A DNA stretch of 55,101 nt from a virus. Location: positions 1 through 55,101 of the IMG/VR virus record IMGVR_UViG_3300023109_000032, one strand, 5' to 3'. How positions within the stretch are numbered: position 1 is the stretch's first letter; each line of letters starts with the position of its first letter. Positions 20,223 through 26,602 of the stretch are shown in pieces. Made by a program: the position numbers and the translations under genes. The notes beneath the pieces were generated by a model. That model was given only the letters and a program-made list of their open reading frames with translations. It made no database searches and was not told the DNA's origin.

Positions 20223-20843
20223 ATGAAAAAGCTCACCTGGTTGTTAGTGTCTTTGTTTTTGCCTTTTGTTGTTTCTTCTCAGTTATGCGATGTTGAATTA
20301 TTAGATATGGATTGGGATGACCAAATTATAACATTAACTTTAAATGATAATGTTTGTTCTAATTCATCTACTCCTAGTTGGGTACCTTACCCTGATTCTG
20401 TGTATGTAGTACAATTAGGATTAAGTTATGGTGGTACGACTTGTACGATAGCTGCTAATTCTACTAATTTTTATCCACCTCTTGGATTAAATGATACTCT
20501 TACTTATACTTTTAGTGATTGGTCAGATCCTTTTGATTGTTTTGCAAATGCATTTACTTATTATCAAGAAACTTGTATAGTTACAGTTTCAGTAGTAGGA
20601 CCTAATAATTCTATTAACTTAGATATGAATAATGGAAATAATTATATAGGCTTTAATCCTGTATGGGATAACTGTTATGGTGTAGCTAATGTTACTGAAT
20701 TAATAAATGCTAATAAGCAGGTAATAGGTGTGTTTGATTTTCTAGGCCGATATATTCAAAAAGATATAATTGGCTTGATTTCTGGGAAATTATATTTAAT
20801 CAAATATAATGATGGCACCATAAAAAAATTACTAGTTACCTAA
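20223..20843 (+). CDS. Secreted protein with short T9SS-like C-terminal domain
   Basis: Sec signal peptide MKKLTWLLVSLFLPFVVSS with Gln at the predicted +1, then LCDVELL. The body is beta-rich with several Cys (possible disulfides) and YGGTT. The last 45 residues (VIGVFDFLGRYIQ ... GKLYLIKYNDGTIKKLLVT) match the end of T9SS type-A sorting domains, in which G-x-Y-x-[IV]-K and a Lys-rich end are conserved. A relative with the same architecture lies at 44644. Predicted to cross the inner membrane by Sec and the outer membrane by host T9SS. First gene of the island. Confidence 0.75.
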   Translation: MKKLTWLLVSLFLPFVVSSQLCDVELLDMDWDDQIITLTLNDNVCSNSSTPSWVPYPDSVYVVQLGLSYGGTTCTIAANSTNFYPPLGLNDTLTYTFSDWSDPFDCFANAFTYYQETCIVTVSVVGPNNSINLDMNNGNNYIGFNPVWDNCYGVANVTELINANKQVIGVFDFLGRYIQKDIIGLISGKLYLIKYNDGTIKKLLVT

Positions 20844-20891: not shown

Positions 20892-22088
20892 ATGCGATAC
20901 TTCAAATTATTCATCTTATGTTTTATCCTGGCGATGCCTATCGTCCATGCACAAACTACTACAGTAAACTTGAGGTCACTTAAAACTCACTATGGTGGAA
21001 GCCAATCAGGTCAGATGTATTCACAAAATGCTGACAGTCACATAGAATTTGATGCAATGGTTAATCTTGCTGATGCCGGTACTACACTTTATTTAGATAC
21101 AACGGTAGATATAACAAGTTACCAAGGACCAAGAGGTGGTAATCATACTCCTTATCAACTATGGAATCCACCAAGATGGGGTGGAGCTGGTACTCAAAGA
21201 TATGCAATTATCTATACAGGTTGGTTTAAACCTAATAAAACAGGTACATACGGGTTCAGAACATTCACCGATGACTCACATGAGTTTATGATTAAAGGTA
21301 TTGGTAAAACTAATGATATAGTTACTAAACATTATGGGTGGAATACATGGGCTTATGGTACGGCAACACTAAACAAAAATACATGGTATGAGTTTGAATA
21401 TAGAATACAGAATTTTGGTGGTATAGGTGCTGCAAATTTTCAATATAAAATACCAAGTAGTAATACATACAATCAACTTAGTCCTAATCATCCATTTGCA
21501 GAATGGACTTCTACAGATCCTAACGCGGTACCTATCACGGCGAGTGGTTATATTAAAGGAGCAGAAGAACAAGGTATTGCAGGACAAACTGTTTATCTAA
21601 AGACACAAAATAAAAACCAAGTAGGTTTCTCATATACAACACAAGCAACTACAACAACAGATTCAAATGGATATTATTCATTTAATACTATTTTAAATTA
21701 CAACGATTACGATTTTACAATAGACATCACTCCGACAATAGGAACACTTACAACTTCAGATATTAACTGGTTCCAAGATAGATTACTATCAGATACAGTT
21801 AGTTCTAAAGATTACTGGAGACTTGATGTAAATAATACAGGTTCATTTTCTGCCTCTGACATTTATCTAATGCATCAGAAGAGACAAGGTAACATTTCTA
21901 GTTACCCTGGTGGAGGCCAGGAAATATGGACTACAAATTACTGGCAGCAACCTCATGTATGGGATGCCGTTTCAGTAGACATAGATGATAAATCATTGCT
22001 CTCTGGTTACGGAGCATGGTCCCTCTTTGATTTAGCTAATGGAAATCAAACAACTTTCTATGTAATAAGAGCGGGCCATAAAAACTAA
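20892..22088 (+). CDS. Secreted PA14-like plus dockerin-like protein
   Basis: Signal peptide MRYFKLFILCFILAMPIVHA followed by Gln. Residues about 85-215 resemble a PA14 (sugar/adhesion) domain: IIYTGWFKPNKTGTYGFRTF and DDSHEFMIKG. Next comes a carboxypeptidase-regulatory-like beta domain (GYIKGAEEQGIAGQTVYLK ... DSNGYYSF), then a dockerin-like pair of half-repeats: TTSDINWFQDRLL and DVNNTGSFSASDIYLMHQK, the second matching the DxNxDGxxxxxD calcium-loop layout. The end ENG...TTFYVIRAG resembles the next protein's end. Probably an exported adhesin or part of a cell-surface complex. Confidence 0.75.
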   Translation: MRYFKLFILCFILAMPIVHAQTTTVNLRSLKTHYGGSQSGQMYSQNADSHIEFDAMVNLADAGTTLYLDTTVDITSYQGPRGGNHTPYQLWNPPRWGGAGTQRYAIIYTGWFKPNKTGTYGFRTFTDDSHEFMIKGIGKTNDIVTKHYGWNTWAYGTATLNKNTWYEFEYRIQNFGGIGAANFQYKIPSSNTYNQLSPNHPFAEWTSTDPNAVPITASGYIKGAEEQGIAGQTVYLKTQNKNQVGFSYTTQATTTTDSNGYYSFNTILNYNDYDFTIDITPTIGTLTTSDINWFQDRLLSDTVSSKDYWRLDVNNTGSFSASDIYLMHQKRQGNISSYPGGGQEIWTTNYWQQPHVWDAVSVDIDDKSLLSGYGAWSLFDLANGNQTTFYVIRAGHKN

Positions 22089-22105
22089 AAAATAATTAAA
22101 AACAA

Positions 22106-23200
22106 ATGAAACTAAAAAACATTTTTCTAACACTGGCTTTAGCTATCAGTACAACGACGGTCTTCGGCCAGACTACTGCACCTGATGCAACAAAACCTTA
22201 TGTTATTTTTGATTCAACGTACACTTTAGAATCCACTGGTTCTAGTTCAAACACTGAGTTTGATATTTACTATGATAACACATCTGGTAATGCAGTTAAA
22301 GGTATTCAGTTTTCGTTTAATTATGATAACACGGTATTTGATGAACCAACATTAACATATAACAATACATCCGGCCCTGTTGGATATTTGTCGTATGATG
22401 TTGATTCAACAAACGGAGTAGTAAAAGTAGTATGGGTTTATACTGGAGCATCTACCACTTTCGATGTGGTTACTGGTAATATGTTTACAGTAAATGCACC
22501 TTTTCTATCAAATTACACAAACGGAGCAGTTGCTGATGTAGATTTTACTGCTGATCTTACTGCTTATTATGTAAAAGCTGATGGAACAGATGGAGCTCTA
22601 GGCACACAAGATAATGGTGGTAACTTTATAGAACCGGCATTTGATTATGTAGCAACTATCTTAAATAGTGGAACAAATCCAGCTGAATCTATTCCTGTGA
22701 TTTTACAAAAATCATCTGATGGAAATACTTGGGTAGATGTAACTACAGTAACAACGGCTGCTAATGGAACTGCAACATTTTCAGAAAGCTTAGATCAATC
22801 TTACTGGCAAATTAGACTTAAGATTGCAAGTGGATTAGATGCAACTACGGCACTATCAACTGCAGATGCTAATATGATCGCACAAATTGCTGCAGGAGTA
22901 CAATCAGCTTCTGGTATTCAGTTCTATACTGCAAATCCAAATCAAGCTACTGGAATTACAGCATCGGATTCTTATTTAGTATTCTCTAGATTAGCACAAG
23001 GTAACTTAAGTTACGCTTCTAATCCAGATGTATTGTTCTTTACTGAAGCACAATATAATACTATTAATGGTTCTAGTTCAGATCAATCAAGTTCAATTCC
23101 AGGACTATCAGTATTTTTATCTCCACAAATTAATGGAACTACTACCGGTAACTTCTACCTATTAATCTTAGGTGATGCCAACGGTACAGGTTTAAACTAA
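22106..23200 (+). CDS. Secreted cohesin-like plus dockerin-like protein
   Basis: Signal peptide MKLKNIFLTLALAISTTTVFG then Gln, as in its neighbours. Residues about 35-150 resemble a cohesin-type beta sandwich (TEFDIYYDNTSGNAVKGIQF, FNYDNTVFDEPTL, VVKVVWVYTG). A middle beta domain follows, then a dockerin-like duplication: TALSTADANMIAQIAAGV and GITASDSYLVFSRLAQGN. The second half-repeat and the closing FYLLILG parallel the upstream protein (SASDIYLMHQKRQGN, FYVIRAG), so the two share a C-terminal module. It lacks a recognisable T9SS domain. Confidence 0.72.
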   Translation: MKLKNIFLTLALAISTTTVFGQTTAPDATKPYVIFDSTYTLESTGSSSNTEFDIYYDNTSGNAVKGIQFSFNYDNTVFDEPTLTYNNTSGPVGYLSYDVDSTNGVVKVVWVYTGASTTFDVVTGNMFTVNAPFLSNYTNGAVADVDFTADLTAYYVKADGTDGALGTQDNGGNFIEPAFDYVATILNSGTNPAESIPVILQKSSDGNTWVDVTTVTTAANGTATFSESLDQSYWQIRLKIASGLDATTALSTADANMIAQIAAGVQSASGIQFYTANPNQATGITASDSYLVFSRLAQGNLSYASNPDVLFFTEAQYNTINGSSSDQSSSIPGLSVFLSPQINGTTTGNFYLLILGDANGTGLN

Positions 23201-23201
23201 T

Positions 23202-23939
23202 ATGAGGAGTATACTATTAACATTACTGTTATTACTAACAGCAAGCGCTCAGTCTCAGGTCGTATTTAACGTACCTGAGATTGATGTGCCTGTAAGTGAG
23301 TACATTAACTTGCCTGTAGAAATTGAAACTTCAGGCGAAGATGTTGGTAGTCTAGAATTTGCATTGAACTATAATACTGATTTTTTAGAATTTGTATCAA
23401 TAAGTGTTACAGCTAAAGCACAAGAATGGTTAACCTATACTATGGACTGGGAAGGGGAAACTGTTAGGTGGGGTGGTTATGACGCATCTTTTGGTACCTA
23501 TACGATAAGTAACACTACTGAACTATTCACTTTAAGATTTAGAGTCATTAGTCAAGATTGGGATACTATACCTATTACGATTGGTAGAAAAACAGCAGGT
23601 ACAGAATTAGGCTGGGATATTGAAGTTGAAAATACTGATGGGTATGTTAATAAAAGAATGGCATCATTTGACACCAGACCAATGGATGGAATTTATGGGT
23701 TGGTTTATCCAATCCCAACACGAGGTTTGTTAACTTTTGATCTAACTGTACCAGATAATGGTGATTATGAAATCAGAGTAATAAATTATAATGGAGTAGT
23801 ATACAAAAGACTTAAGAAAAGATTCTTTAGTGGATATGTTTCATTCCAAACAGATTTATCTGATTTAGCACAAGGAATTTATTTGTTGCAAGTAACAAAC
23901 GGTGTGTATGTAAAAACATTCAAAATAATAAAGAAATAA
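23202..23939 (+). CDS. Secreted cohesin-like protein with full T9SS type-A sorting domain
   Basis: Signal peptide MRSILLTLLLLLTASAQS with Gln next. Residues 20-150 form a cohesin-like domain (INLPVEIETSGEDVGSLEFA, LNYNTDFLEFVSI, FTLRFRVI). Residues about 168-245 are a textbook T9SS type-A CTD: VYPIPTRGLLTFDL (standing in for YPNPxxGxLxI), YEIRVINYNGVVYK, DLSDLAQGIYLLQV and the terminal VKTFKIIKK. Predicted to be exported by the host T9SS and possibly anchored at the surface. It starts two bases after the previous gene's stop. Confidence 0.82.
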   Translation: MRSILLTLLLLLTASAQSQVVFNVPEIDVPVSEYINLPVEIETSGEDVGSLEFALNYNTDFLEFVSISVTAKAQEWLTYTMDWEGETVRWGGYDASFGTYTISNTTELFTLRFRVISQDWDTIPITIGRKTAGTELGWDIEVENTDGYVNKRMASFDTRPMDGIYGLVYPIPTRGLLTFDLTVPDNGDYEIRVINYNGVVYKRLKKRFFSGYVSFQTDLSDLAQGIYLLQVTNGVYVKTFKIIKK

Positions 23940-23940
23940 G

Positions 23941-24201
23941 ATGGAAGATAAAAAGGGAGGGTTCTTTTCAGAAATTAAGAATCAAATAGTAACTGGGATA
24001 GGTTTAGTTATAACAGCGGCTTTTGGATTATTGATAGCCAATATGCAATCTATATTTGAGCCTAAAGAAGAAAAAGTAGATCCACCTGTCATGGAGCAAA
24101 GAATCAATACACCAAATAATATAAAAGATACTTTGGTAATAACAAAAACAATAGTTATACCTCCTAAGAAAGAAGAAAAAGAAGAAGAGATATCATGGTA
24201 A
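23941..24201 (+). CDS. Single-TM protein with charged Pro/Lys/Glu tail
   Basis: A polar N terminus (MEDKKGGFFSEIKNQ), one membrane segment (VTGIGLVITAAFGLLIANM) and a disordered periplasmic-looking tail ending PPKKEEKEEEISW. The topology is TonB- or spanin-like, without either family's motifs. It overlaps the CsgG-like gene by seven bases, so it may serve the export system. Confidence 0.6.
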   Translation: MEDKKGGFFSEIKNQIVTGIGLVITAAFGLLIANMQSIFEPKEEKVDPPVMEQRINTPNNIKDTLVITKTIVIPPKKEEKEEEISW

Positions 24202-24899
24202 GAATATTTTTAATTGCATTACTTTTATTTAATCTTACGGCTAATGCTCAAATAGGAAAAACTGAAACTGAAGACTATAAGGCTGGCTTTGAACAAAAAT
24301 CAGACATAGATGAGGTATCAGATTATATGTTAGATTATCAATTACCTATTCAAGTTTTAAATATTGGCTTTACTCCAGAATTATATGAGTTCTATCCAGA
24401 GTTAAGAGAGAATCGAGTAGGTCTTGGTGTAAGTAACATTACTTTGTCTTATTTGGAATGGACAGATAGATTTTTATTTACTGAAGATAAAGAAGAAATC
24501 AAACAAAGAATGGTAAAACAACATAAAGCAGCTGCGAAAGGTATATCCGCAAATGATATTAAAGTTGTAGGTAATGTTGTATTGGCAGAGTATTTTGTTT
24601 ATATAGAAATATATGATTATTCTGTATCAGAGGAAGAAGAAGTTACAGTCAGTGGTGTAAAGACAGTTCTTAAAACTATTATCGGTATGCAAGTAAGATT
24701 TGTTAATGCTGAAACAGGAACAATCTTTACAGGAAGTGGGAGCGGTGAAGCAGTTACAATTAAAAGAAGTCAGATTGGTGAAGATAATGAAGTTAAGTTT
24801 AATAAATCAACAATCGGTATTGCAACTAAGAAAGCTTTGGAAACTGCATCAGCTCGTATCATAAAAAGAATGATTAAGCGTGGAATATTTAAAGAATAA
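24195..24899 (+). CDS. CsgG-like curli/outer-membrane secretion protein
   Basis: Signal peptide MVRIFLIALLLFNLTANA plus Gln; no lipobox Cys, unlike E. coli CsgG. The body matches the CsgG/LpoB fold: YFVYIEIYDY, then GMQVRFVNAETGTIFTGSG, and a C-terminal helix ATKKALETASARIIKRM. CsgG forms an outer-membrane channel that secretes curli subunits; csgG-like genes have been noted in marine T4-like phages, but their role there is unknown. The gene sits between the TM gene and the barrel gene with overlaps on both sides. Confidence 0.72.
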   Translation: MVRIFLIALLLFNLTANAQIGKTETEDYKAGFEQKSDIDEVSDYMLDYQLPIQVLNIGFTPELYEFYPELRENRVGLGVSNITLSYLEWTDRFLFTEDKEEIKQRMVKQHKAAAKGISANDIKVVGNVVLAEYFVYIEIYDYSVSEEEEVTVSGVKTVLKTIIGMQVRFVNAETGTIFTGSGSGEAVTIKRSQIGEDNEVKFNKSTIGIATKKALETASARIIKRMIKRGIFKE

Positions 24900-26163
24900 A
24901 ATTTTAATTCTATTACTGTGTTTACCATTTGCTACTTTTGGCCAATGGTCTTATACATTTACAGATCCTTGTACTTTAAATCAACAAACAATCCAAATGG
25001 GTTCCAGTAATTCTATTGCTTTAAATTATTTTGGTAATGTTCAAACATTTACACAGACAGATTTTACAAATGGTACATTTGACTCATGGATGGATTTAGT
25101 AACACAAGCTAATAGTTCATCACCATGTTCAGGTGTAACACAAGTAATTATGAATACCTCAAATACTATTGCTATTCAGAATACTATCTTAGTCGTTACA
25201 AATGTTATGTCAATATTAGGTGGGGAGATGTTACCTAAAGCAATATCTGCATCAGCAGTTCCAGTTGCAGAAGCTATAGATAATGCAGCAGGTGAAGAAG
25301 AGGAAGAAAAAAAGAAAGGTTCATCTAAAAATCAAAATAGTAATAGCACCAGTTCTGAAAATCAAAACAGTACATCAAGTAATGAAAACCAAAGTAGCAG
25401 TGGAGAAGGCAATGGAGGTGGGGAAACTAATGGTGGAGAAGTGACTGAGGAAGAGGAAACTGAAGGCGGTGCAAATTTGTCATTAGCTAATTCTATTTCT
25501 AATGCATTGGACGGTGGAGATGAAGATAATAAAAATAGAGGATCATTAATTGCATCAGGTGATATTATAGTTATTGATAATAGGGATAATTCAAATGGGC
25601 AACAGTTAAAGGTAGTAGGTTCTATTACACGAGCCAATACAAAACAGAGCAGAATTCAAGGTGCTCTTTTTACATACACATCTGTTACTAATGATTTTAG
25701 TTTAACATTTTACAAATCTTGGATTAACCCTAACAAAACTTTTAATTTAGTAGGGGCCAATACAACGATGACTGATTTTAATCAAAATCATTTTAATACC
25801 ACAACAGCTTTAGAATCATGGAAGTGGGGTAAAATTACAGGTATGGCTGGAGCTAACTTTACATTTGGTAAGTTAGGAAAAAGAAATTTACAAAACTTAT
25901 CAGCTGTTACTGGTGCACATAGAAATTTTAGAATAAGTCCAAGGATTACTACTTCAACATTAATACTAGGTGTTTATTCTCCGTTCACTCAATTCTATGA
26001 AGGTAAGTGGTGGGATTCTGGAATTTTGGTAGTTCCATTTAGTTCATGGGATATTAAGATAACAAAAACTTTTAAATATAATATCAGTTTTACAGGCGTT
26101 TGGCATTCTAACGGTAATGCTTTAAATTATCAAATTTTAACCGGTGGTAAAATAAGATTTTAA
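24880..26163 (+). CDS. Exported protein, probable outer-membrane beta-barrel
   Basis: The only plausible start is GTG at 24880, inside the csgG-like gene; it gives a signal peptide (KILILLLCLPFATFG) followed by Gln. Residues about 145-205 are a low-complexity Asn/Ser/Glu/Gly linker. The C-terminal 200 residues alternate polar and aromatic residues in strands (DFSLTFYKSWINPNKTF, WGKITGMAGANFTFGK, YNISFTGVWHSNGNALNYQ) and end in aromatic Phe (KIRF), typical of outer-membrane barrels. It may be the membrane partner of the exporter. Confidence 0.65.
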   Translation: MEYLKNKILILLLCLPFATFGQWSYTFTDPCTLNQQTIQMGSSNSIALNYFGNVQTFTQTDFTNGTFDSWMDLVTQANSSSPCSGVTQVIMNTSNTIAIQNTILVVTNVMSILGGEMLPKAISASAVPVAEAIDNAAGEEEEEKKKGSSKNQNSNSTSSENQNSTSSNENQSSSGEGNGGGETNGGEVTEEEETEGGANLSLANSISNALDGGDEDNKNRGSLIASGDIIVIDNRDNSNGQQLKVVGSITRANTKQSRIQGALFTYTSVTNDFSLTFYKSWINPNKTFNLVGANTTMTDFNQNHFNTTTALESWKWGKITGMAGANFTFGKLGKRNLQNLSAVTGAHRNFRISPRITTSTLILGVYSPFTQFYEGKWWDSGILVVPFSSWDIKITKTFKYNISFTGVWHSNGNALNYQILTGGKIRF

Positions 26164-26164
26164 T

Positions 26165-26602
26165 ATGAAGAATTTAATTATAACATTAATGTTTTTACCT
26201 ATGCTTTCTTTTTCACAGGAATGTTATACTGTGGCTAAAGTAGGTACACACGTAGAGATGGAAGAAATGAGTAAGAACCGTATTGTTTTCGGAATTAAGC
26301 AAATGGTTGAAGATATTATTTCAGACAAGTATGAATTATGCATGGATGGCAAACCTGTAATAATAGTAGTGAAATCAATCGAAGCTCCAACAACTGGAAT
26401 TGAATTAGGCCCATGGACTAAAGTAAGTAAAAAAACTATTGTGAAGTTACTAATCTATATGGATGGTAAAGAAATTGCAGTAGAAGGAAAAGCTAAATCA
26501 ACAGTTGAGGCAACATTCATAGATCTTAATAATGATAAATTAGACTTTAATAAAACTACATTTTCATCAGCAGTTAAGAAAGCAATCGAAAAAGCTCTTT
26601 AA
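26165..26602 (+). CDS. Small exported protein linked to the CsgG-like gene
   Basis: Signal peptide MKNLIITLMFLPMLSFS plus Gln, then ECYTVAKVG. The body is alpha/beta, ending in STVEATFIDLNN and FSSAVKKAIEKAL, a layout recalling the last strand and helix of CsgG/LpoB-fold proteins, so it may be a distant relative or partner of the gene at 24195. Two cysteines. Last gene of the island. Confidence 0.6.
   Translation: MKNLIITLMFLPMLSFSQECYTVAKVGTHVEMEEMSKNRIVFGIKQMVEDIISDKYELCMDGKPVIIVVKSIEAPTTGIELGPWTKVSKKTIVKLLIYMDGKEIAVEGKAKSTVEATFIDLNNDKLDFNKTTFSSAVKKAIEKAL

Follow-up and report, generated by a model that had tools for sequence, protein, structure and literature searches.

Large viruses of Bacteroidota (flavobacteria and kin) carry a gene set that appears to build a sugar-binding coat assembled from parts that snap together, joined by the same plug-and-socket domains, dockerin and cohesin, that hold bacterial cellulosomes together. 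We analysed a 55,101-base viral record from IMG/VR, hereafter the window, in which two adjacent secreted proteins (F1 and F2) share a homologous C-terminal module that we identify as a divergent dockerin, and the next gene (F3) encodes a cohesin followed by a T9SS sorting tail. Most likely, infected cells display a T9SS-anchored cohesin scaffold into which a lectin-dockerin protein plugs, making the cell adhesive, although binding, pairing, surface display and benefit are inferred. We found no published phage cohesin-dockerin system among the open-licence papers searched.

Domains of the adjacent secreted proteins

The first-pass annotation had proposed a dockerin-like module at the ends of F1 and F2 and cohesin-like domains in F2 and F3, which could bind one another. 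The shared module was confirmed. F1 contains TTSDINWFQDRLL, DVNNTGSFSASD, SASDIYLMHQKRQGN and FYVIRAG, and F2 contains STADANMIAQ, TASDSYLVFSRLAQGN and FYLLILG. The annotation had given one spacer length before QGN for both proteins, whereas it is 5 residues in F1 and 6 in F2. Profile-profile comparison of the two C-terminal modules with hhalign gave a probability of 97.2% and E 3.5e-11 over 129 columns (an earlier run gave 7.9e-12 over 113 columns), indicating that the likeness is not chance. All three domain assignments hold once relatives are used, and the proposed binding is plausible. The annotation did not recognize the setting, namely a phage with swappable lectin heads, a T9SS anchor, and fusion of F2 and F3 in relatives. 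The features are listed in Table 1.

Table 1. Positions of the described features in the window, or in the phage loci L017 and L106 (our labels) where indicated.
Positions	Strand	Feature	Length
20892..22088	+	F1, secreted lectin-X-dockerin protein	398 aa
20961..21539	+	F1 N-terminal predicted PA14-type sugar-binding domain with the DD pair (TDDSHEF)	residues 24-216
21543..21758	+	F1 X-like domain (CNA-B / carboxypeptidase-regulatory type)	
21681..22085	+	F1 dockerin-like C-terminal module (first helix 21750-21788, then calcium loop, second helix and FYxxxxG end)	
21825..21860	+	F1 calcium loop DVNNTGSFSASD	
22106..23200	+	F2, secreted cohesin-X-dockerin protein	364 aa
22181..22645	+	F2 predicted cohesin domain	residues 26-180
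22793..23197	+	F2 dockerin-like module, degenerate loop NPNQATGITASD at 22934-22969	
23202..23939	+	F3, cohesin (about 23265-23582) plus T9SS type A sorting tail (about 23703-23936)	
23941..24201	+	F4, short protein with one hydrophobic stretch, function unknown	86 aa
24195..24899	+	F5, exported protein, possibly (weakly) a CsgG-like outer-membrane channel	
24880..26163	+	F6, exported protein with an outer-membrane-barrel-like C-terminus	
26165..26602	+	F7, small exported protein, C-terminal part weakly like F5	
20223-20843		Secreted protein directly upstream of F1	206 aa
2815, 3875, 4738, 5541, 16655, 17539, 19049, 19397	+	ORFs beginning with a similar peptide	
46114	-	ORF beginning with a similar peptide	
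L017, 8582-12271		Phage protein with PA14, many repeats and its own T9SS tail, no dockerin	1229 aa
L106, 8105-9373 and 9377-10381		Two tandem F1 genes with different heads	

The cohesin of F3 matched Pfam PF00963 at E 3.8e-9 (37.3 bits against a curated cut-off of 24.1), and its sorting tail matched PF18962 (E 1.7e-8) and TIGR04183 (E 4.9e-10), both above cut-off. The start of F2 has no Pfam cohesin hit in the window's own protein, but Pfam detected Cohesin in 7 of 21 relatives (best 7.4e-5). The AlphaFold model of this region had good confidence, its best Foldseek matches were cohesins (E from 1e-6), and structural comparison gave a VIA Z of 14.2 to the type I cohesin 3ul4_A, with 140 residues aligned at an rmsd of 2.8 Å.

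The dockerin identity of the shared module was less apparent from single sequences. Searches of the PDB with the single F1 and F2 sequences gave nothing useful, a profile of the F1 module alone hit no dockerin in the PDB, and a comparison with one CelS dockerin aligned only the loop. Dockerin_1 (PF00404) was matched at 12.9-15.3 bits in 5 of 10 modules, including the F1 of the window (14.7 bits, E 0.036), below the curated cut-off of 22.9 bits. However, of 34 diverse 70-residue cores, 22 matched Dockerin_1 at E 1 or better (best 2.3e-5), compared with 6 for the next family, EF-hand_6. A profile of these cores against 177,635 PDB sequences gave 18 hits at E 10 or better, of which 12 were dockerins. 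The two top hits (9sf8 and 9sf9, E 0.001) are not annotated as dockerins, but named EF-hand proteins such as calmodulin were absent, so the match is not just the calcium loop. Furthermore, a separate profile of the fused F2-F3 protein described below hit dockerin 4uyp_B in exactly this region (columns 244-309, E 0.018), cohesin 6kg8 at 402-537 (E 0.0025), a transthyretin-like fold at 179-228, and T9SS tails at the end. The AlphaFold models of the dockerin regions were poor (pLDDT below 50), so the fold of the module is not shown.

One of the two calcium loops of a canonical dockerin is kept. In 47 of 47 F1-type modules, loop positions 1, 3 and 12 are D, N and D, position 5 is D or N in 40 (T in the window), and position 8 is always hydrophobic. 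The ligands of the first loop are missing, and only its helix with an invariant Asp remains. We therefore call the module a divergent one-loop dockerin. In F2, the clade in which F2 and F3 are fused keeps D1 (16 of 28), while the clade with separate genes has N1 (12 of 28). In the window's clade, the F2 loop has N at position 1 and A, T, S or N at position 5, so it may not bind calcium. The loss of the first loop and the degenerate F2 loop in the window's clade could also suggest that the modules have lost binding. We consider this unlikely because of the invariant loop residues in F1-type modules, because cohesins are always encoded with them, and because of the distance comparisons presented below.

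The window's F1 carries a predicted PA14 fold at its N-terminus. Foldseek matched the model of this domain to the PA14 sugar-binding adhesins Flo5, Flo1, Epa and Marinomonas PA14 (E 1.8e-5 to 1e-4), with a VIA Z of about 11. The overall model is poor (mean pLDDT 44), but residues about 103-200 of this domain are its confident part. The window protein itself has no Pfam PA14 hit, although Pfam detected PA14 in 4 of 15 relatives (best 4.9e-7). The following X-like domain matched SdrD_B (E 2.6e-5) and CarboxypepD_reg (2.1e-4), both below cut-off, and these families were found in 10 and 7 of 15 relatives, respectively.

Gene set, fusion and head exchange in related phages

The window also contains ClpB-like, DNA ligase, UvdE and thymidylate synthase genes and is related to the cultured Flavobacterium phage vB_FspM_immuto (160 kb, host Flavobacterium sp. 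LMO8, Baltic Sea), which has F2, F3 and F5 at 50-62% identity and the same gene set as gp013-gp019. F1 is equivalent to gp013. The immuto record names gp013 'lectin C-type' and gp015 'cohesin domain-containing', whereas gp014, gp017, gp018 and gp019 are hypothetical. The F1 module was found in 116 viral contigs, of which 80 were kept. Plasmids held no F1 relative, and a scan of 84,980 genomes with the F2 alignment found a single 10.9 kb contig (JAAEPJ010000011.1), in a MAG of a phylum with just three genomes in that collection, which is probably a phage contig binned with it.

Profile searches revealed three gene orders, F1-F2-F3-F5-F6-F7, F23-F5-F6-F1-F7 and F23-F5-F6-F7-F1, where F23 stands for F2 and F3 as one protein. 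Incomplete sets are contiguous runs of these orders, and those inspected end at a contig or locus end. F23, found in about 31 diverged phages, is about 630 residues long and consists of a cohesin, an X-like domain, a dockerin, a second cohesin and a T9SS tail. Of 27 proteins scanned, 15 of which are fused, Por_Secre_tail was detected in 15 and Cohesin in 13. The fusion supports F2 and F3 working in one complex. The F2 dockerin keeps a better loop in the fused phages, where the link to F3 is already covalent, so its job is not simply to hold F3.

F1 carries interchangeable heads. Of 59 distinct F1 proteins, 24 have a C-type lectin with both EPN and WND motifs, 11 have PA14 with the DD pair, 20 have GEVED, and 4 have others. 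Pfam confirmed Lectin_C, PA14, GEVED and LamG in members. In the window's clade the head precedes the X-like domain, whereas in the clade of immuto it is inserted inside it. On the F5 tree of 45 phages, the head type changes at least 9 times, although some branches are weak, while the split or fused arrangement changes once. L106 has its two F1 genes on one scaffold set. In L017, the PA14 domain is 63% identical to that of the window's F1 but sits on a protein with its own T9SS tail, as if the dockerin replaces the anchor. The secreted protein directly upstream of F1 in the window ends in GVFDFLGRYIQKDIIGLISGKLYLIKYNDGTIKKLLVT, which looks like a T9SS tail, though no Pfam T9SS hit was reported.

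To examine which cohesin F1 uses, we compared evolutionary distances by a mirror-tree approach. After removing F5-F7 distances, the distances of the F1 module follow those of both cohesins (partial r 0.47 for F2 and 0.37 for F3). Within the fused clade they follow the cohesins (0.30, 0.31) but not the F2 dockerin or the tail (-0.05, -0.09), and within the split clade the order is reversed, with the F3 cohesin and tail ranking higher (0.46, 0.39). Because distances are not independent, this is only suggestive and does not choose between F2 and F3.

The F1, F2, F3, F5, F6 and F7 families have N-terminal hydrophobic cores in nearly all members (for example, 56/59 F1, 51/55 F5 and 55/55 F7) against 18% of other ORFs. 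F4 has BLAST homologues in 12 distinct relatives of the window's clade. F5 has a lipobox in 15 of 55 relatives, and one member matched CsgG (PF03783) in Pfam at E 0.0016. However, F5 gave no PDB hit, and profile comparison with CsgG of E. coli, HTVC008M and Melnitz was not significant, leaving this assignment weak. The 51 distinct F6 homologues end in F (28), L (20) or I (3), an aromatic or aliphatic residue as in outer-membrane barrels. F7 shares a C-terminal stretch with F5 (hhalign E 6.4e-5, probability 64%), suggesting distant paralogues, whereas CsgE for F7 was not supported. An export role of F5-F7 is a guess from these traits and from gene order.

Possible roles and known systems

With somewhat better than even confidence, we favor the explanation that F3 is the anchor, whose T9SS tail should send it to the outer surface, F2 is a link with a cohesin at one end and a dockerin at the other, and F1 is the head, a sugar-binding domain plugging into a cohesin of F2 or F3, probably with calcium. 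Because the head would be held by a plug rather than covalently, phages could exchange lectin types on one scaffold. F5, F6 and F7 are probably envelope parts that help export or assemble the proteins lacking a T9SS tail. The likely benefit is that infected cells stick to glycans on sister cells or algal particles, keeping new hosts near the burst, as proposed as sibling capture for other phages (PMC7029224). However, a 2022 study of the curli-pore phage Melnitz saw no clumping of infected cells (PMC9004378), although no cohesin or lectin was described in that phage.

Alternatively, the lectin of the same surface complex could cover the host's surface glycans so that competing phages cannot adsorb, with head swapping following the glycan types of different hosts. 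In immuto the cassette lies after polymerase, SSB, recombinase, helicase and RNR genes, among replication rather than virion genes, which is compatible with early expression, and the repeated head switches would fit. Masking would, however, not need a separate T9SS-anchored scaffold, and head types do not follow the phage tree closely, making this possible but unlikely. Less likely still, the dockerin might be an export handle, by which F1 binds the T9SS-tailed cohesin in the periplasm and is carried through the T9SS channel, then released or kept. F1 and split-clade F2 have signal peptides but no T9SS tail, while F3 has one, and the PA14 relative in L017 carries its own tail instead of a dockerin. 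This would leave the co-conserved F5-F7 without a role, but it can also be combined with the favored explanation. Decoration of the virion, for example by glycan-binding fibers added after lysis, seems the least probable. Phage decoration may often use Ig-like and lectin domains, but the signal peptides, the T9SS tail on F3 or the fused protein, and the position among replication genes in immuto point to the cell envelope. A more speculative possibility, also unlikely, is a viral cohesin-dockerin fiber, with the F3 cohesin at the base, repeated F2 subunits joined head to tail as the shaft, and the F1 lectin at the tip, which would be a pilus-like adhesive filament put up by a virus on its host.

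Cohesin-dockerin assembly is known from cellulosomes and some bacterial surface proteins. Cellulosome systems such as Clostridium thermocellum CipA/SdbA and Acetivibrio ScaA-ScaB share the cohesin fold, the dockerin-type calcium loop, an X-like domain beside the dockerin, a cohesin-plus-dockerin adaptor, an anchored cohesin and a dockerin-borne functional head. Here, the parts are phage-encoded, the heads are lectin-type domains rather than mainly enzymes, the anchor is a T9SS tail, the dockerin has one intact loop and a conserved C-terminal extension ending in FYxxxxG, and the chain is short, with only one or two cohesins per scaffold. No glycoside hydrolase family was listed among the 42 F1 and fused proteins scanned, and we do not regard the set as a cellulosome. 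Phage-encoded T9SS cargo has been reported as a unique occurrence for Cryophage, comprising an endoglucanase, GH39 and a PA14 protein with T9SS tails (PMC7468147). There the sorting domains are carried by the cargo genes themselves and the paper mentions no cohesin, whereas here the lectin carries a dockerin and the tail is on a separate cohesin. Yeast flocculin Flo5 and the Marinomonas adhesin PA14 share with F1 the predicted PA14 fold and the DD pair expected of the calcium-dependent sugar site, but F1 is phage-encoded and attached through an X-dockerin module. A phage version with exchangeable lectin heads would show that lytic viruses rebuild the outside of their host during infection, and would give phages a modular way to change which glycans an infected cell sticks to.

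The curli-pore cassettes of pelagimyophages and Melnitz (PMC7029224, PMC9004378) are also phage cassettes of exported proteins. Those of HTVC008M and Melnitz lie next to the phage SSB gene, as the cassette here lies among replication genes in immuto. They have clear CsgG (37-40% identical to E. coli), and no cohesin, dockerin or T9SS parts were reported. Elsewhere in the window, several unrelated ORFs begin with a similar peptide (MKYIKLFEKF, MEHIKDYKLF, MKHINEYSEF, MEFIKKYTEF and the like), reminiscent of the capsid-targeting sequence of T4, and may encode proteins packed into the head.
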